From: Oscillospiraceae bacterium
GTDB taxonomy: Bacteria > Bacillota > Clostridia > Oscillospirales > Ruminococcaceae
Length of the DNA stretch: 64,000 bases
Reading direction: 5' to 3'
Assembly (NCBI GenBank): GCA_015067025.1
Contig: SVNC01000009.1
Location: 29,149 to 93,148 of the forward strand
This document shows positions 11,294 to 21,834 of the stretch, one piece after another. A program made the translations under genes and the position numbers. The stretch's first letter is position 1; each line of letters begins with the position of its first letter. The notes under the pieces are model-generated. The model ran no database searches, was not told the origin of the DNA, and worked only from the letters and a program-made list of their open reading frames with translations.

Positions 11294-13060
11294 TTATTCT
11301 GCTGATGATTCCGTCTGTGAAGAAGAGCTGTTTGTAGTTGCACCTGTTCTTACAGAGTAGTAAACTGTAACCTTTTCGGATTTTTCTACGTTTATCTTGT
11401 CGCCGACCTTCTTGTTGCACTTAAGCACCATATTAGGCTCTATTTCATTTGCAACCTGAGGCTTCTTTTCAAACTTGATATTGCTCTGTGAAAGAAGTGC
11501 TGTGTATTCATCAACCGTCATACCCTCGTAATCGGGTAGCGGAACTTCGCTGGGTCCCTTACTTACTATAAGCTCTATTTCCTGACCGTTCTTTACTTCT
11601 GTATCAGCCTTTACGCTCTGCTTTATTACAAGACCTGCCGCAACCTTATCATCAAACTTATACGTTGCGGTTATCTTAAGGAAGGCGTAGCTCTGATTTT
11701 CCTGAACGGAAGTGAATATTCTGCCCACAAAGTTAGGTACGATATAGACCGTATCATTGGGAGCGACGCTTGTCACGCCTGAAGAGGTTTCTTCCGTCAG
11801 AGGAGGAAGCGTCAGTATTTCCTTTGAGCTTGTAGGCTCAGAGGTTTCAGGAACTGAATAGTAATTCGGGTCGGAGGAGTTTGTTCCGAAGTCCGAAGAA
11901 GCGAATATTCCTATTGCTATAGAGAAGGCTGTTACGATAGCAACGCAGATTATAATAGTGATTATAATTGCTGTGGGGTTGCTTTCCTGCTTCTTTTTCT
12001 TTTTGTTTTCTGCGGATGGATGCTCGTAGCTTGTTTCAACACGTTTGACGGGTTTTGAAACCACAGCCGCCTTTACAGGTTCTGTTTCCGCTGTGTTGAA
12101 TTTAGGCTGTTCAAAAAGCTTTACCACAAGCTCGGTTATTGACTGGATACGAGCTGAGGTGTTGAGCTTCAGACCGTTCATAATAACCTTAGAAACGTGG
12201 CTCGGAACGTTTCTGTTTATTGCCATAGGCTCTGCACAGGTGTCGTTGCCCATTCTTGAAATAGACTCAACGGGTGCACAGCCTGTCAGCACTCTGTAAA
12301 GCGTTGCGGCAATGCCGTAAACGTCCGTCCATGCGCCCTGCCACTCGGCAGATGAATACTGCTCAGGTGCGGCAAAGCCGGGGTACATCTCGCAGGCAAT
12401 TTCCGTATTTGTTGTACGGCCTGCACTTATCTGGAAATCAATTAGTTTAAGCTCGTTCTTTTCAGTTACGAGGATGGTCTGAGGGCTGATGCCTCTGTGG
12501 ATTATTCCCGCACTGTGAACCAGACTGAGAGTAGTCAATATCGGTGGGAACAGCTCCTTCACCCTGTCCCAGGTAAGCTCACCTGAGCAGTTTGAAAGAT
12601 AGCTTTTCAGCGAAATTCCGTTTACGTATTCAAAAATAACGTAAGCGGTGTTGTTTTCAGGGAAAATATCCAGTACTGTCTGGATATGGGTCATTGTGCG
12701 TGCCTTCATCAATGCCTTATTCAGCTCTATAAATTCTGACATATAGGTCTTATAAAGAGGCATCTGGTTTTGTTCTACTATTATATTGGGGTCGCCTTTT
12801 TTTCTGCTGCAGAGAGTGTCGGGCATATACTCCTTTATCGTTACCTTGGTATCGGTAGCTTTATCATAGCCGATATAGGTAGCACCCTCTCCGTTGTAGC
12901 TCAGAAGCTTTCCTGCAATGTATCTGTCGTTAAGCACTGTACCCGGTGCAAGATAAGAGGGAAGGTAGGGAGTTTCTTCGCTGTATCCGCACTGTTCGCA
13001 AGCACCGTCGCCGTTCTTTTCGCACATACATCCAAGACAAAGCTTATTAATCTGTGCCAT
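11294..13060 (-). CDS. Membrane PASTA protein with degenerate Ser/Thr kinase domain (probable pseudokinase)
   Basis: 588 residues. A zinc-ribbon-like start has CLGCMC and CEQCGY (8-25). A Hanks-type kinase fold follows (about 47-315), then a KKKKK stop and one transmembrane helix (364-388), then about two PASTA repeats outside (VPNFVGRIF, LPDYEGMTVDEY). The lysine is kept (VTIK, K76) and so is the metal-binding aspartate (D208). The catalytic loop, however, reads HRGISPQTI: catalytic Asp is Gly190 and the conserved Asn is Thr195. DFG reads DFQ. I checked these codons on the DNA. Canonical relatives read HRDISPDN and DFG. By family knowledge such changes abolish normal phosphotransfer, so a signalling scaffold or cell-wall sensor is more likely; this is inference. 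Confidence 0.85.
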   Translation of the reverse strand: MAQINKLCLGCMCEKNGDGACEQCGYSEETPYLPSYLAPGTVLNDRYIAGKLLSYNGEGATYIGYDKATDTKVTIKEYMPDTLCSRKKGDPNIIVEQNQMPLYKTYMSEFIELNKALMKARTMTHIQTVLDIFPENNTAYVIFEYVNGISLKSYLSNCSGELTWDRVKELFPPILTTLSLVHSAGIIHRGISPQTILVTEKNELKLIDFQISAGRTTNTEIACEMYPGFAAPEQYSSAEWQGAWTDVYGIAATLYRVLTGCAPVESISRMGNDTCAEPMAINRNVPSHVSKVIMNGLKLNTSARIQSITELVVKLFEQPKFNTAETEPVKAAVVSKPVKRVETSYEHPSAENKKKKKQESNPTAIIITIIICVAIVTAFSIAIGIFASSDFGTNSSDPNYYSVPETSEPTSSKEILTLPPLTEETSSGVTSVAPNDTVYIVPNFVGRIFTSVQENQSYAFLKITATYKFDDKVAAGLVIKQSVKADTEVKNGQEIELIVSKGPSEVPLPDYEGMTVDEYTALLSQSNIKFEKKPQVANEIEPNMVLKCNKKVGDKINVEKSEKVTVYYSVRTGATTNSSSSQTESSAE

Positions 13061-15182: not shown

Positions 15183-16475
15183 ATGAGTAGCCCAACAAGA
15201 GAAGAGCTTCTTCGGAAGATCGACGAAGCACCGCTTCTGATGACCAAAGAAGCTGCAAAGAAAAAATTGCGAAAACCCCGTAGCGTTTATGCAGACCAGA
15301 TACTTCTGATGCTGGCTGTTATGGTGCTGTCGGTCTATATATACGGACCACGTGCCCTTGCGGTATGTGCATTTTCAGTACTGTGCTGTGCAATTACCGA
15401 TATGATAGGTTGTTTTCTTTCCAAGAAGGAATACAGCTTCAAGGACCTTTCCAACGTTGCCTACGGTATGGCGGTAGCACTTATGCTTCCTGCCTCGGTA
15501 GAATATTATATAGTAATGATCGGTGCGGTGCTTGCAATAACCGTAAAGCACGTTTTCGGCGGCAAGGATAACTATATCTTCAATCCTGCCGCAGTAGCCA
15601 TTGCATTTTTGATAATCTGCTATCCTCAGCAGGTGCTGATGTATCCTGCTCACAATGCAGAGCTTGCAATATTCGGTGCAAACGAAATGCCTCTTTTAAA
15701 CAGCATCGAAAGCAGCTTTATCAAAAACGGTGCTTTGCCGAATTTAACCGCTCTTGATATATTGATGGGCAATTTCGCAGGGCCTATGGGTACTACTCAT
15801 ATACTCGTTCTTATCGTCTGCGGAATATGTCTTCTTTTCCGTAAAAGCATTTCATTCAGTGCAACCCTTGGCGGAGTAGGAAGTATGGCGTTACTGAGCT
15901 TCCTTCTTACAGGCTCTGTGGATGCAACGGTATTCCGTTTTATAAGCGGCTTTGTGCTGTTCGGATTTATATTTCTTGCCAGCGACCCTCAGACTCTGCC
16001 CTATACAGGTGGCGGACGATTGCTTTACGGTATCTCCTTAGGCGTCATTGCTACCATTTTCAGAAACAGTGCAAACATCGAGGGTGTATTCGTATTCGCT
16101 CTGCTTATAACAAACGTGCTTTCTCTTTACCTTGATAAGCTCTTCTTTGATATAAAGAATAAATTAAAGCAGATGTTCAGTTACCTTAAAAATAATTTAG
16201 GTTCCTTTGAACGAATGTCAAAGGACGCAAAGCTCGGCAAGACTCCTGCTCTTTCAGATACTCAGGAGATCATAATCCAGCCTGTAAATTATAATATGCC
16301 CCCCATTGACAATAAAGTTACAAAGATAAAAAGAAAAAAGAAGTTAGGTTTTGCCGAAATAAAGGAAAGTATAGCGGATCTTTTCAAGAAGAACAATAAA
16401 CCTGTAAAGAAAACGGAGGTCAGTCATGGCGACAGCGAAACAGATAAAGCCGAAGAAAATAAAACAGAAGACTGA
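15183..16475 (+). CDS. RnfD/NqrB-family membrane protein
   Basis: 430 residues with about ten hydrophobic helices (from about residue 37 to 325) and a 100-residue basic/acidic cytoplasmic tail. Family marks are KHVFGGKDNYIFNPAAVAIA and FIFLASDPQTLPYTGGGR, matching the NPA and DP-T-P-T segments of RnfD. In RnfD a flavin is attached to Thr in an S/T-G-A-T motif; here the equivalent stretch reads LPNLTALDIL, so covalent flavin binding is doubtful. It starts a three-gene set in the order D-E-A, the Rnf order with C, G and B missing. The tail overlaps the next gene by 50 bases. Confidence 0.82.
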   Translation: MSSPTREELLRKIDEAPLLMTKEAAKKKLRKPRSVYADQILLMLAVMVLSVYIYGPRALAVCAFSVLCCAITDMIGCFLSKKEYSFKDLSNVAYGMAVALMLPASVEYYIVMIGAVLAITVKHVFGGKDNYIFNPAAVAIAFLIICYPQQVLMYPAHNAELAIFGANEMPLLNSIESSFIKNGALPNLTALDILMGNFAGPMGTTHILVLIVCGICLLFRKSISFSATLGGVGSMALLSFLLTGSVDATVFRFISGFVLFGFIFLASDPQTLPYTGGGRLLYGISLGVIATIFRNSANIEGVFVFALLITNVLSLYLDKLFFDIKNKLKQMFSYLKNNLGSFERMSKDAKLGKTPALSDTQEIIIQPVNYNMPPIDNKVTKIKRKKKLGFAEIKESIADLFKKNNKPVKKTEVSHGDSETDKAEENKTED

Positions 16476-17172
16476 TTTCAAGTTTACAAGAGATCTTCTT
16501 GACGGTCTTGCAAAGCAGAACGTCGTACTGATGACGGGTATTGTAAACGCACCTGTTATTATCGCCGCAACCTCTTTTAAAAAGGGAGTTGTTATAGCGA
16601 TTGCTTTTGCGATAATTTCCTTCCTTACAATACTCACCTGCTCCTTTATCCCTAAAAAGATAGTTTACACGCTCCGTGTAATTATATATGCTCTGGTAGG
16701 CTCGGTTTATTATATCCCGACGGTGTTACTGCTTGAAAGGATATTCCCACTTACCGTTCAGCTTATCGGTATCTATATGCCGCTTCTTATAGCAAACGCA
16801 CTTATATTCTCAAAGACAGAGAGCCGCTTCTATCTTGAATCAAAGCAGAAGATGGTTATAGACGTAATAATGTTTATCATAGGCTTTGGCGTTATATGTG
16901 TGCTTACAGGCGGATTCAGAGAGGTCATCTGCTTTGGCACCTTTGCAGGTGTCAAAATTCTGGATATAAGTATATCAGCCTTTGAAGCCCCCTTCGGCGG
17001 ATTTATACTCGTAGGAATAATGGCGGGTATGTTCAGAGCCTTATACAACTATCTCAGAAACAGAAGAATAAAGCAGAATGAAGAGCTTGCAAGAGCTGAA
17101 GCTCTTCGTAAAGCACAAAGCGAAAAGCTGATAGAAGAAGAAACGATATCAGAGCCTAAGCAACTGCAATAA
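16426..17172 (+). CDS. RnfE/NqrD-family membrane protein lacking FeS cysteines
   Basis: 248 residues, about six helices, with basic ends. It aligns by eye with RnfE: QNVVLMTGIVNAPVIIAAT corresponds to the family's NPVxVQxLGLCPxLAVT, and IGIYMPLLIANALIF to IGIYIPLIxVNCxIL. Both cluster cysteines are therefore replaced (LCP to VNAP, NC to NA). The rest keeps the fold, including FGTFAGVKILDISI and FEAPFGGFILVGIMAG. GGAGG precedes the ATG at 16426, which lies inside the previous gene. Family identity is fairly secure; an electron-transfer role through the known membrane FeS centre is not supported. Confidence 0.78.
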   Translation: MATAKQIKPKKIKQKTDFKFTRDLLDGLAKQNVVLMTGIVNAPVIIAATSFKKGVVIAIAFAIISFLTILTCSFIPKKIVYTLRVIIYALVGSVYYIPTVLLLERIFPLTVQLIGIYMPLLIANALIFSKTESRFYLESKQKMVIDVIMFIIGFGVICVLTGGFREVICFGTFAGVKILDISISAFEAPFGGFILVGIMAGMFRALYNYLRNRRIKQNEELARAEALRKAQSEKLIEEETISEPKQLQ

Positions 17173-17191
17173 AAAAGAAAAAGGAAAACCA

Positions 17192-17791
17192 ATGGATAAG
17201 CTTTTATTATTTATAAACACCGCAATGTTTGCCATGTTCGTTGAAAATGCAATTTTCAGCAGAGCGCTCGGCACGAGCGTTGCATTTTATGCTTCGAGAA
17301 AAAAAGATAGCATAATCGGGCTTGGTGTCGGCATAACATTTGTAACGGTACTGTCAAGTTTCGTCACCTTCTGGTTTGACGCATGGCTTTACGATTACGA
17401 ATATTACTACGTGATAATGCCGCTCATCTACACTCTTATAGTTAGTGTTATATACACTGCAAGTCTTCTTATCATCTGGAGGTTCTTGCCGAAGCTCTTC
17501 AGAAGTATAAAGAAATACGTACATCTGTCTGTATTCAATGCAACGGTACTTGGAGCGTTATTTTTAAACACCGTTTACCGTACCGATCTGTTACAATATA
17601 TTGCGTTTGGTGTGGGAATTTCCGCGGGCTTCTTTATTGCGGTATTCTTCCTGCATATAGCAAACGAAAGACTCAATTCTCCCCTTATTCCCGAAGCCTT
17701 CAGAGGTATGCCTATAATGATGGTCTTTATCGGAATAATGTCACTCGCATTCTACGCCCTGACAGGCTACAACACAGGAGCAATAGCTTAA
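17192..17791 (+). CDS. RnfA/NqrE-family membrane protein with no cysteine
   Basis: 199 residues, six helices. The N-terminus FVENAIFSRALGTSVAFYAS corresponds to RnfA's NNFVLxRFLGxCPFxGVS, and YVHLSVFNATVLGAL to LPLITTNCAVLG. Both cluster cysteines are absent, and the whole protein contains none. FAVTFVM-like and GGIxAG-type segments remain recognisable as GVGITFV and GVGISAGFFIAV. It lies 19 bases after the RnfE-like gene with a good ribosome site. In true Rnf, RnfA and RnfE form an inverted-topology pair holding a 2Fe-2S centre; here the pair persists without the ligands. Confidence 0.78.
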   Translation: MDKLLLFINTAMFAMFVENAIFSRALGTSVAFYASRKKDSIIGLGVGITFVTVLSSFVTFWFDAWLYDYEYYYVIMPLIYTLIVSVIYTASLLIIWRFLPKLFRSIKKYVHLSVFNATVLGALFLNTVYRTDLLQYIAFGVGISAGFFIAVFFLHIANERLNSPLIPEAFRGMPIMMVFIGIMSLAFYALTGYNTGAIA

Positions 17792-17830: not shown

Positions 17831-19066
17831 ATGAAAAACAAAGGGATAAAGGTTAAACGCCGTAGAAAAAATTTCTACAGAAAAAGAAAAAGCACCGGAC
17901 GTAAGGTACTGGAGGTAATTTTAATTATTCTCCTTATCGGAGCGTTAGTTTTTATAGGTTATTCAGTTGCACCTCCACTGATCAAGTTCTTCTCAGGAGA
18001 TAACGACAACTCATCAACCCGCGAGCCTGTATGGACTCCGCCTGAAACCACTACTTCCCAGACGGAAAGCAGTGTGGTTACAACTCCGCCCGTAACGACC
18101 GAAAAACCGGAGGATAAGCCTCAGCTTCTTGGTGGTACGAATGCAGTGACCGCACCCGACTCAGCTCTGCAAAGCTCTGCGGCTCTCAAAAAATATCTTG
18201 AAACCGCAAAAAACAGCGGATATAAGGCTGTGATCTTCTATCTTAAGGATGATACGGGACATCTTCTGTACAAATCATCCGTTGATACGATAAAGGATAA
18301 CACAACTATCGTTACAGGCAAGCTTACTGCCGCACAGATAGTAAAGATATGTAAGGAAGCACAGATCACTCCCGTTGCGTCTATCACAACACTTAACGAC
18401 CATCTGATACCGAAATTTGTTGACGGCACAGGCTACAGAACGTCAGATGACTGGGAGTGGCTTGATGCAGCCTACGACAAGGGCGGTCAGCCCTGGGCTA
18501 CCCCCTATTCTTCAGCTACTGTGACGTATCTTTCAAAGATAACCAAGGAGCTGTCACAGGCAGGCTTTGAAAGTATAATCTTAAAGGATGTGACTTTCCC
18601 TAATTTCGGTAACTACGATTACTCCTTACTTCCTGCTTATTTAAAGGAAAGTGCGAGAACAGAAAAGCTTGTGGCACTTATCAATAAGTGTGCTTCTACA
18701 GCGACTGCTTCTCATTCCTTCGTAAATATAGACGCGGCAAATCTGCTGACTCTTAACAAAGCATATTACAAGGGCACCGCAGAGGTCTGGAAGAATAAAG
18801 ACGGTATCACAGGTGCAGGTATAGTAGTTACTCTTGACGTCAATACTCTTGGTACGTCGTTACAGATATCCGACAGTGAAACTCTTAAGGTTGACAAGGA
18901 TATCGCAAAGGCGGTAACAGGCGTATTTACAAAGGTCAAGAAAACTGCCGGCAATACCGAAATAGCGGTAGGCATAAGCAATTCGTCAAAGCTCACGTCG
19001 GCACAGATAAAGAGTGCGGTAGCTGCATTTAAAAAACTCGGTTACGAAAACATCGTATTGATGTAA
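17831..19066 (+). CDS. Membrane-anchored TIM-barrel protein (DUF4015-like putative glycoside hydrolase)
   Basis: 411 residues. A very basic cytoplasmic start (KVKRRRKNFYRKRKS) is followed by one helix (about 27-50), a Thr/Pro/Ser linker (about 57-97) and an extracellular domain. The domain begins with ALQSSAALKKYLETAKNSGY and KAVIFYLKDDTGHLLYKS, like the DUF4015 putative glycosyl-hydrolase family in which Asp in the K-D-D-G segment lies at a barrel strand end. EWLDAA and SIILKDVTFPNFG follow later. It lies 39 bases after the RnfA-like gene on the same strand, so it may be part of that operon. Enzymatic activity is inferred only. Confidence 0.6.
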   Translation: MKNKGIKVKRRRKNFYRKRKSTGRKVLEVILIILLIGALVFIGYSVAPPLIKFFSGDNDNSSTREPVWTPPETTTSQTESSVVTTPPVTTEKPEDKPQLLGGTNAVTAPDSALQSSAALKKYLETAKNSGYKAVIFYLKDDTGHLLYKSSVDTIKDNTTIVTGKLTAAQIVKICKEAQITPVASITTLNDHLIPKFVDGTGYRTSDDWEWLDAAYDKGGQPWATPYSSATVTYLSKITKELSQAGFESIILKDVTFPNFGNYDYSLLPAYLKESARTEKLVALINKCASTATASHSFVNIDAANLLTLNKAYYKGTAEVWKNKDGITGAGIVVTLDVNTLGTSLQISDSETLKVDKDIAKAVTGVFTKVKKTAGNTEIAVGISNSSKLTSAQIKSAVAAFKKLGYENIVLM

Positions 19067-19149: not shown

Positions 19150-19494
19150 ATGACAGAAATTTTAAATCTTCTTGCTGAAACAGCAACACAGAATCCCGAC
19201 GCGGCAAACCCTGCTGCAATGCTCACAATGCTTATTCCCTTAGCGGCAATGATCCTTATCTTCTACTTCCTCATTATAAGACCTGAGAAGAAGCGTTCAA
19301 AGAAGATGAAGGAAATGCTCAACAACCTTGAAGTAGCGGATGAAGTCGTTACAACAGGCGGTATCATCGGCAGAGTACTCAGCGTTAAGGAAGATACAGT
19401 CCTTATCGAAACAGGCAGCGACAGAACGAAGATCCGTGTTTTAAAGGCAAGCATTGCTGAAAACAGAACCGTTCACGATACTACAGAAGGCTAA
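19150..19494 (+). CDS. yajC: Preprotein translocase subunit YajC
   Basis: 114 residues. The single helix IPLAAMILIFYFLIIRP is followed directly by EKKRSKKMKEMLNNL and VVTTGGIIGRV, the standard YajC layout. It is an accessory membrane protein of the SecDF-YajC complex that aids protein export. It starts after AAGAAAGGAAAC, has its own promoter and ends before a repeat and a terminator. secD and secF are not in the window, so it stands apart from its usual partners. Confidence 0.92.
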   Translation: MTEILNLLAETATQNPDAANPAAMLTMLIPLAAMILIFYFLIIRPEKKRSKKMKEMLNNLEVADEVVTTGGIIGRVLSVKEDTVLIETGSDRTKIRVLKASIAENRTVHDTTEG

Positions 19495-19670: not shown

Positions 19671-19692
19671 ACGCCGTAAGCGGCGTTTTTTT
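19671..19692 (+). terminator. Terminator of yajC
   Basis: ACGCCG-taag-CGGCGT followed by TTTTTTT. Confidence 0.75.
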
Positions 19693-20685: not shown

Positions 20686-21834
20686 TTATTTTGCTTCCAC
20701 CTTTGTGTGCTTACCTACTATAAGAGCAATTACGCCGCCTATGATCAAAGTAGCAAAGCCTGTAAGAGTTGATAAATTAAAGCCGAAGCCTGCGGGGAAT
20801 ATAACGTATATAGATCCTGCCACAAGTCCTAATATTACGCTATAGACCATAAGACTCCACTTTTTCATAAGGAAGGTTATAAGTCTTGCACCTATTACAA
20901 GACCTGCAACGGCACCTATTGCACAGGGGATTATGATTGCAAAGTCAAAGCCCTTTACTGCGGCTATTACCGTAGAGTATACACCGAGCGTCATCATAAC
21001 GAATGAGCCTGATACACCGGGGATTATCATTGCTATTGCCGCTACAAAGAGCGATACCATCATAGTAAGGAAAAAAGTTACGTCCATTGCATAGCTGACG
21101 TTAAGCGACATTTTTGACGTATCAGCTTCTATTACATCGTGATAGATAAAGGTAGCACTTTTGCCTGCTTCAATTACTGCATTTTCTTTGCTTGTAAACA
21201 TATTTGGAGTGTTTGCAGGAAGCTTAATACCGAAAATTCCTTTTATCTTATCGATAGTGGAATAATCATATACCGCTACTGCATCGCCTTCCATCGTTTC
21301 ATCAAGCTGAATAGTCTCGTCTTCAAATTCTATCGACCAACCGTTTATTGCTCTGTTGCTGTCGTTGTAAACCGTTATCGTAGTTGAAATGCCGTTGCTT
21401 TTCATATCAAAGCGATAAGGGTCTGCACCGCTGTTGTTTTCGAGAATTGCAAGACCCACAACTGCCGCGAGACCAATAACAAAGGGCAGGATGCAGATGG
21501 GTCTGAATTTTTCCTTTACCGTAGCATTACGGATTATAAGCGGAACACTGCCTATAATAAGTCCCATAAAGAACATATTTGTCTGAACGGGGAAGTTAGT
21601 GAATAAGAAGGTTATGATAAATGCAAAGCCTACTATGCCAATAACTGCACCTATTCCGAAGAATATAAGAAAAACCAGATTTTTCTTTATTTCTTTTATA
21701 TTCAGGGTAAGTGCACCGCACACCTTGTCGTAACAGCCGAATACAACGAGCATCGTACCGCCGCTGACGCCGGGGATGACGTTTGCTATACCAAAAACCA
21801 TACCGTAAACTACGGCTAACAGATACTGCAACAT
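20686..21834 (-). CDS. DUF368 (PopT-type) lipid-carrier transporter with inserted extracellular domain
   Basis: 382 residues. The two family repeats are seen as NVIPGVSGGTMLVVFG (19-34) and MIIPGVSGSFVMMTLG in the second half. DUF368 proteins (PopT) are undecaprenyl-phosphate recycling translocases. Between helices 4 and 5, residues about 133-249 form a hydrophilic beta-rich domain (TVYNDSNRAINGWSIEFED ... VIEAGKSATFIYHD) not found in ordinary DUF368 proteins of about 270 residues. Its N-G-W-S-I-E-F and E-A-G-K-S segments recall CBM2-like carbohydrate-binding folds. This is a resemblance only. The gene lies 22 bases after the P-type-ATPase-like gene, likely one operon. Confidence 0.8.
   Translation of the reverse strand: MLQYLLAVVYGMVFGIANVIPGVSGGTMLVVFGCYDKVCGALTLNIKEIKKNLVFLIFFGIGAVIGIVGFAFIITFLFTNFPVQTNMFFMGLIIGSVPLIIRNATVKEKFRPICILPFVIGLAAVVGLAILENNSGADPYRFDMKSNGISTTITVYNDSNRAINGWSIEFEDETIQLDETMEGDAVAVYDYSTIDKIKGIFGIKLPANTPNMFTSKENAVIEAGKSATFIYHDVIEADTSKMSLNVSYAMDVTFFLTMMVSLFVAAIAMIIPGVSGSFVMMTLGVYSTVIAAVKGFDFAIIIPCAIGAVAGLVIGARLITFLMKKWSLMVYSVILGLVAGSIYVIFPAGFGFNLSTLTGFATLIIGGVIALIVGKHTKVEAK

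Follow-up and report, generated by a model that had tools for sequence, protein, structure and literature searches.

An RnfD-RnfE-RnfA-like trio lacking the iron-sulphur and covalent flavin ligands of Rnf, encoded beside a DUF4015 gene in Oscillospirales

The trio and its genomic setting

We analyzed a 64,000-nucleotide stretch of contig SVNC01000009.1 from an Oscillospiraceae genome (hereafter the window), focusing on three adjacent genes related to the D, E and A membrane subunits of Rnf (RnfABCDGE), the ion-translocating redox complex of Acetobacterium woodii and Clostridium tetanomorphum. The genes stand in the Rnf order D-E-A, with the frames and coordinates that a first-pass annotation of the sequence had given them (Table 1), and the start of E overlaps the end of D by 50 nt. 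Their products all exceed the cut-offs of the Pfam families of RnfD, RnfE and RnfA, and Rnf chains of the Protein Data Bank (PDB) are their top matches (for D, the RnfD chain 7zc6_D, E 4.9e-29), as expected of homologous D, E and A subunits. The NCBIfam cut-offs for working subunits, in contrast, are far from reached (127 of 207 bits for rnfD, 41 of 213 for rnfE and 87 of 229 for rnfA). A hydropathy scan predicts six helices in A, six in E, eight in D and one in the product of the next gene, which belongs to DUF4015 (PF13200) by both profile and fold. The other neighbors of the trio identified by Pfam in the window are rpe, mecA and yajC.

Genes for RnfC, RnfG and RnfB, already reported missing in the first-pass annotation, were found beside the trio at none of 70 loci of the window's genus, as far as the contigs reach. 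The separate canonical operon whose existence that annotation had left to be checked is present: a complete ordinary rnfC-D-G-E-A-B with its cluster cysteines lies on another contig of the window genome (L037). A spare rnfG elsewhere in this genome was ruled out, as the single RnfG-type (FMN_bind) match lies inside the ordinary operon. The one other 51K-type match that might have been a spare rnfC is a 602-residue frame on contig C28 and, judging by its length, probably encodes a hydrogenase-type subunit.

Loss of redox ligands

Sites are numbered as in A. woodii Rnf (chain 9eri), and the letters at these sites match those given in PMC11889175. For comparison, genus loci were aligned with ordinary Rnf copies, 23 in all: the window genome's own and 22 from the survey of the order described below.

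None of the four cysteines of the [2Fe-2S] site of RnfA and RnfE, called strictly conserved in Nqr/Rnf (PMC9588780), is present in the window, and A contains no cysteine at all. Three of the four positions are never cysteine in the genus (Table 1); in the ordinary copies cysteine occupies RnfE C25 in 23/23, RnfE C108 in 22/23 and RnfA C25 in 22/23. A separate protein search returned 100 E-like matches, 99 of which miss both RnfE cysteines (a few as gaps at a site), while P0100, the only match with both, resembles ordinary RnfE. The fourth position, RnfA C113, is lost in 13 loci of the window's subclade (L078-L089, L126) and in L116, L117 and L134; loss of all four cysteines is therefore confined to these 16 loci, the other 54 still having C113. 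In D, the position of the threonine that carries flavin mononucleotide (FMN) in RnfD, T156, is Met in the phmmer alignment and Ile in the MAFFT alignment, and the FMN-pocket residues R129 and E188 are kept in 0/67 genus loci. On these alignments, the trio lacks the [2Fe-2S] and covalent-FMN ligands of Rnf. The initial claim that every known redox ligand had been lost is accurate for the cluster cysteines and the FMN threonine in the window, and is too strong beyond that because the riboflavin contacts N134 and D268 remain in D and most relatives keep C113.

Residues facing the missing subunits have changed as well. RnfA R154, described as near or meeting the RnfB cluster (PMC11889175), is arginine in only 5/70 genus loci, and E158 is kept in none of the 70. 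The N-terminal arm of RnfD, which sits inside RnfC according to PMC9588780, has also lost its Ser-Pro-His in the genus.

Two possible substitutes for the cluster ligands were rejected. Other conserved cysteines at the cluster site, which would have spoken against the loss, were not found: Cys72 of E is nearly invariant (65/68 genus loci) and lies outside the site. A new histidine of A (RnfA P107 to His111) is invariant in 70/70 genus loci and 3/3 g27 loci but missing in the remaining 13 derived loci, and no metal site could be made of it.

Selection, distribution and linkage

The expectation that the complex is made, which came from the intact and overlapping frames, gains from substitution rates. 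Comparison of the window with L078, L079 and L126 gave ratios of nonsynonymous to synonymous substitution (dN/dS) of 0.026-0.056 for A, 0.075-0.113 for E, 0.104-0.128 for D and 0.079-0.092 for DUF4015, values like those of rpe (0.061-0.089), with synonymous sites partly saturated, most of all in DUF4015. These ratios place all three genes of the trio under purifying selection, A being its most strongly conserved member. Many trio residues are invariant in the genus though not in ordinary Rnf. An A-like match better than E 1e-50 occurs in 35/36 genus genomes, the window's included; the sole genome without one, G024, is 72% complete. Three genus A-like matches (G001, G021 and G148) contain a single stop within the aligned stretch. 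Named records of the relatives are metagenome-assembled genomes that appear under Ruminiclostridium sp., Oscillospiraceae, Clostridia and some other names, many of them, by their titles, from deer, goat and rabbit guts.

Co-occurrence with the downstream TIM-barrel gene, a further point raised in the first-pass annotation, proved to be the rule. The order D-E-A-DUF4015 is found in 65/70 genus loci, with DUF4015 directly 3' of A in loci that reach that far. Four exceptions all lie at contig ends: L119 and L133 are without D (L133 also without E), and L102 and L134 are without DUF4015. In the fifth, L090, A-DUF4015 lies between rpe and yajC and D-E lies on another contig beside mecA.

Retained riboflavin contacts and ion path

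The window D retains the predicted riboflavin contacts N134 and D268 (RnfD N123 and D249) and may still hold riboflavin. The equivalent residues of the structure in PMC9588780, Asn124 and Asp248, lie beside riboflavin, and Asp248 is a possible Na+ site there. Among genus D proteins N123 is missing from 11/67 (7 Ser, 2 Cys, 1 Pro and 1 gap), and the gate residue F245 is Phe in 67/67.

In E, three residues of the Na+ path that PMC11889175 places in RnfA/E are kept, R67, N107 and E115 (Table 1). Just 9 of the 52 RnfE columns that are at least 90% conserved in ordinary Rnf stay at least 90% conserved in the genus, and these three are all among the 9; the enrichment (p 0.004, or 0.014 counting the variable L103) is to be read as a guide only, because the sites were picked from that paper. 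Among the 100 E-like proteins, R67 is Arg in 92 and Lys in 4, and N107 and E115 are each kept in 97. In A, N112 is kept in 70/70 and L108 in 68/70 genus loci. The RnfE mutants R67A and E115K failed to grow in the work of PMC11889175.

Table 1. Features of the trio and its downstream neighbors, in window positions. Counts refer to genus loci.
Feature	Position	Strand	Remarks
D, RnfD-like membrane subunit with a tail of ~100 residues	15183..16475	+	430 aa (amino acids); PF03116 NQR2_RnfD_RnfE, E 4.2e-54
D Asn134 (RnfD N123), riboflavin contact, kept	15582..15584	+	N in 56/67
D stretch where RnfD has the FMN threonine T156; no Thr	15675..15722	+	Thr in 0/67 (9 gaps)
D Asp268 (RnfD D249), riboflavin/cation contact, kept	15984..15986	+	D 59/67, E 8/67
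Conserved D-tail motif DTQEI..NYNMPPIDNKVTKIKRKK	16257..16340	+	cytosolic side assumed
E, RnfE-like membrane subunit	16426..17172	+	248 aa; PF02508 Rnf-Nqr, E 1.7e-18
E Ala42, replaces RnfE cluster Cys25	16549..16551	+	Cys in 0/68
E Arg84 (RnfE R67), kept	16675..16677	+	R in 68/68
E Asn124 (RnfE N107), kept	16795..16797	+	N in 68/68
E Ala125, replaces RnfE cluster Cys108	16798..16800	+	Cys in 0/68
E Glu132 (RnfE E115), kept	16819..16821	+	E in 67/68
A, RnfA-like membrane subunit, zero cysteines	17192..17791	+	199 aa; PF02508 Rnf-Nqr, E 1e-27
A Ser29, replaces RnfA cluster Cys25	17276..17278	+	Cys in 0/70, one gap
A Ala117, replaces RnfA cluster Cys113	17540..17542	+	Cys in 54/70, lost in 16
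DUF4015 gene, predicted N-terminal helix and outside TIM barrel	17831..19066	+	PF13200, E 1.1e-13
DUF4015 Lys252, where 4s1a has the Asp of the FDYIRFP motif	18584..18586	+	catalytic role of Asp not established
yajC, next same-strand gene	19150..19494	+	PF02699, E 1.9e-28
Terminator-like hairpin 3' of yajC	19671..19686	+	consensus scan only

The DUF4015 protein and other features of the window

The window DUF4015 is the only DUF4015 match in its genome. The hydropathy scan places its helix at residues 29-47, and the best fold matches of its structure model (predicted local distance difference test score, pLDDT, 85.8) are the DUF4015 structure 4s1a, Cwp19 and PgaB. The protein is predicted to be a surface TIM barrel anchored by a single helix, its fold being shared by enzymes acting on sugars of wall or poly-N-acetylglucosamine type. 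The basic N-tail (window 17831-17900, of the type KIKRxKNLYKKRKS) is conserved in the genus and recognizable in several other derived loci.

The tail of D carries a motif that is near-invariant in the genus: T360, E362 and P373 are invariant, and D376, K378 and K381 nearly so (alignment A3, 32 rows). It may serve to dock a partner in the cytosol. Farther out on the minus strand, the frame at 20686-21834 encodes a multi-helix membrane protein with a hydrophilic mid-stretch that we take, by reading of its sequence, to be DUF368-like, and the frame at 11294-13060, upstream of rpe, resembles a PASTA-type serine/threonine kinase on the same kind of reading.

A series of gene orders and a second conversion

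Ordinary C-D-G-E-A-B operons occur in other families of the order Oscillospirales. In several families the same operon is followed, after rnfB, by DUF4015 (L038, L039, L047, L063, L153, L164, L165 and L166); the Rnf-DUF4015 link is thus not limited to the redox-dead form. Further loci read C-D-E-A-DUF4015 (L041, L151, L161-L163 and L167, the last being one locus with L043), D-E-A-DUF4015 outside the genus (L060, L148-L150) or, at a contig start, A-DUF4015 (L051). By gene order, the trio is the last member of a series leading from ordinary Rnf, not the isolated new class proposed at the outset. Counted by eye, at least 21 of 147 sampled genomes of the order carry a derived locus; DUF4015 adjoins this locus in 16 of these 21, as it does at least 17 ordinary rnf operons, and some second copies (e.g., G112, G165 and L046) are unclassified in these counts.

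Derived loci outside the genus share most of the losses. Cysteine is found at RnfA C25 in 0/16, at RnfE C25 and C108 in 0/15 each, and at RnfA C113 in 6/16, and the FMN threonine of RnfD is retained in 4/15. RnfE R67 is Arg in 14 and Lys in 1 of 15, RnfA N112 is kept in 15/16, RnfD N123 in 14/15 and D249 in 13/15 plus one Glu. The RnfC-like proteins of the C-D-E-A relatives have both 4Fe-4S cysteine sets (11/11) and have lost the glycine loop that is present in 19/19 ordinary RnfC. This loop is the site for FMN and nicotinamide adenine dinucleotide (NAD).

One complete C-D-G-E-A-B operon, the second in its genome (L055, on G053:C9), is a separate case: its RnfA cluster region reads LFGCGSFF and the second RnfE site is Gly, so that cysteines have moved or disappeared in an operon that still has G and B.

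Four genomes of family f7 (G041, G064, G078 and G116) have, among the matches listed, only derived-grade PF02508 matches, two each, the best with E ~1e-26 to 1e-27, and their derived loci read C-D-E-A-DUF4015. A fifth genome of that f7 genus, G092, has an ordinary C-D-G-E-A-B-DUF4015 operon and shares with the derived loci an upstream gene that we take, by reading of its sequence, to be prmA. All five genes of the derived locus L161 score best against the G092 operon (D 63% identity, DUF4015 54%, C 44%, A 40% and E 36%), while its matches to other derived loci are lower (D 35-37%). Two ordinary f7 operons share 63% in D, 75% in A, 59% in E and 55% in C; the derived D is as near to ordinary D as the ordinary pair are to each other, which indicates that D has not sped up and that A and E have. 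A quick tree of A, E and D, with long branches, puts all derived rows on one side and ordinary Rnf on the other (approximate likelihood-ratio support, SH-aLRT, 99), as a single origin of all derived complexes would. When the f7 derived loci were held with the two ordinary f7 loci, however, the likelihood was higher by 9.56 (approximately unbiased test, p-AU 0.658), and we do not retain the single origin. Together, the per-gene identities and the shared upstream neighbor favor an in-place second conversion in f7, and hence two independent conversions, without proving them.

Possible mechanism and rival explanations

A transporter or an envelope machine had been suggested at the outset, and either may be the function of the trio. 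Because the ligands for the iron-sulphur cluster and the attached flavin are missing, the trio would work without the usual electron transfer. We tentatively propose that this conserved Rnf-core derivative is an ion-gated conformational machine that moves or holds the predicted surface protein DUF4015. A and E would still form an alternating-access hourglass pair, keeping part of the gate, and Na+ or H+ would pass downhill via R84, E132 and N124 of E and N116 and L112 of A. The gradient would be supplied by the ordinary Rnf encoded elsewhere in the genome; in the f7 genomes without an ordinary Rnf match it would need another source. DUF4015, which resembles RnfG in its single N-terminal helix and outside domain, would fill the place left by RnfG and follow the inward/outward switch of A and E (in Rnf itself, RnfG moves closer as RnfA/E switch; PMC11889175). 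D would be a scaffold, perhaps still holding riboflavin, and the load moved or held would be wall glycan. Ion flux, complex formation, the position of DUF4015 and the wall-glycan load are parts that we infer. The bolder form, in which the Rnf core was converted at least twice independently into a gradient-driven envelope machine whose Na+/H+ backflow drives a glycan-handling barrel at the RnfG seat, we regard as unlikely; if true, Mot, Exb/Ton and Tol would be joined by a new class of ion-motive machine.

Several observations favor the ion-gated machine. Among them are the retention of R67, N107 and E115 in RnfE and of N112 and L108 in RnfA, the low dN/dS, the position of DUF4015 directly after A and its one-helix, outside-type barrel. 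RnfA residues described as meeting the RnfB cluster (R154) are lost together with RnfB, the four f7 genomes keep the derived complex and DUF4015 only (among the matches listed), and A and DUF4015 stay paired in L090, the sole locus where D-E moved off. Other results weigh against it. In PMC11889175, A. woodii with RnfE E115A grew as well as the wild type and A. woodii with RnfA T110G failed to grow, T110 being lost here together with Q85 and T111; kept ion-path sites are not enriched in RnfA (p 0.43). Outside the genus, E115 is kept in just 8/15 and N107 in 9/15 derived loci. In five f24 C-D-E-A loci (L062, L157-L160), DUF4015 is absent from the 2.5-3.5 kb fetched downstream; the frames found there (L157, L159 and L160; L062 and L158) look, by our reading, in some cases lipoprotein-like and in others TasA/camelysin-like, starting MKTKKSRILLS. 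No A-DUF4015 fusion was seen among 31 matches (best 7998 candidates scored). Finally, the window protein has Lys where 4s1a has its motif Asp, and the barrel may therefore lack enzymatic activity.

A different reading makes D the working part, which would transport a small solute such as riboflavin; A and E would be structural partners, and DUF4015 would act outside on the solute or on its source. The resemblance of RnfD topology to urea and ammonium transporters (PMC9588780) fits this, as do the retention of N123, D249 and F245 alongside the loss of R129, T156 and E188 from the FMN pocket in 67/67 loci, and the f7 pattern, in which A and E diverged while D did not. We nevertheless find it rather improbable, given the genus proteins without N123, the report that RnfD is dry and without Na+ (PMC11889175), and the fact that it is A that has the strongest conservation (dN/dS 0.03-0.06). 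The trio might instead belong to a redox complex of another kind, with riboflavin in D and, in C-D-E-A relatives, RnfC-like clusters providing a shortened electron route. That the riboflavin contacts, both 4Fe-4S sets and, in some derived loci outside the genus, the FMN threonine persist is consistent with such a route. We doubt it strongly: RnfE lacks both cysteines in 83/83 derived loci (68 genus and 15 outside), the RnfC-like proteins have lost the glycine loop, and RnfC, RnfG and RnfB are all missing beside the trio in the window's lineage, with no spare RnfG-type gene in the window genome.

Since the window genome holds both a derived and an ordinary Rnf, the trio could also regulate the latter, serve as its decoy or take part in its assembly, a role made very unlikely by the four f7 genomes with no ordinary Rnf match (among those listed) and by the separate places of the two operons in the window genome. 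Decay of a duplicated rnf operon would account for the missing ligands and subunits and for the stops in G001, G021 and G148, and is so improbable as to carry almost no weight. A pseudogene is ruled out by dN/dS far below 1 (with synonymous sites partly saturated), presence in 35/36 genus genomes and the steady D-E-A-DUF4015 order, and decay is further opposed by the many residues that became invariant.

Meaning and comparison with known systems

An Rnf core that is selected without its redox parts points to residues that matter beyond the usual electron transfer, namely R67, N107 and E115 of RnfE and N123, D249 and F245 of RnfD. This bears on Rnf itself, where the coupling of electrons to ions is disputed, with the Na+ path placed in RnfA/E (PMC11889175) or in RnfD (PMC9588780). 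The DUF4015 linkage, seen also beside some ordinary operons, hints at a second, envelope-related job of Rnf that outlived the redox job. Annotation, too, calls for care: one such E-like protein, P0044, carries the name RnfE in public databases, so gene counts alone would assign these cells a surplus redox pump or, in f7, their sole one.

The trio resembles Rnf in the homology of D, E and A, in predicted helix number and in the retained residues R67, N107 and E115 of RnfE and N123 and D249 of RnfD. It differs in lacking the [2Fe-2S] cysteines, the FMN threonine and adjoining RnfB, RnfC and RnfG, in its link to DUF4015 and in the long tail of D. The DUF4015 protein is distant from the glycan-acting domains of Cwp19 and PgaB (11% and 8% identity); it has Lys for the motif Asp of 4s1a, and is set apart further by the single membrane helix, the basic N-tail and the Rnf-type genes encoded with it. 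No description of a redox-free Rnf core was found in the literature searched, with most subscription papers outside its reach. The nearest precedents are the Na+-translocating NADH:quinone oxidoreductase (NQR) and a two-subunit Nqr/Rnf-like complex, both described as electron-moving. NQR is likewise a derivative of a duplicated rnf operon; it lost rnfB, and its RnfC descendant NqrA lost its cofactors (PMC4014512). It also gained NqrF and remained a redox pump, and the four cysteines gone from the trio are strictly conserved in Nqr/Rnf (PMC9588780). The two-subunit complex shares an RnfD-like subunit with a non-conserved FMN threonine, and differs in having an RnfG-like flavoprotein and an NAD-binding domain, a proposed role as an electron mover and two apparent subunits (PMC10979944).

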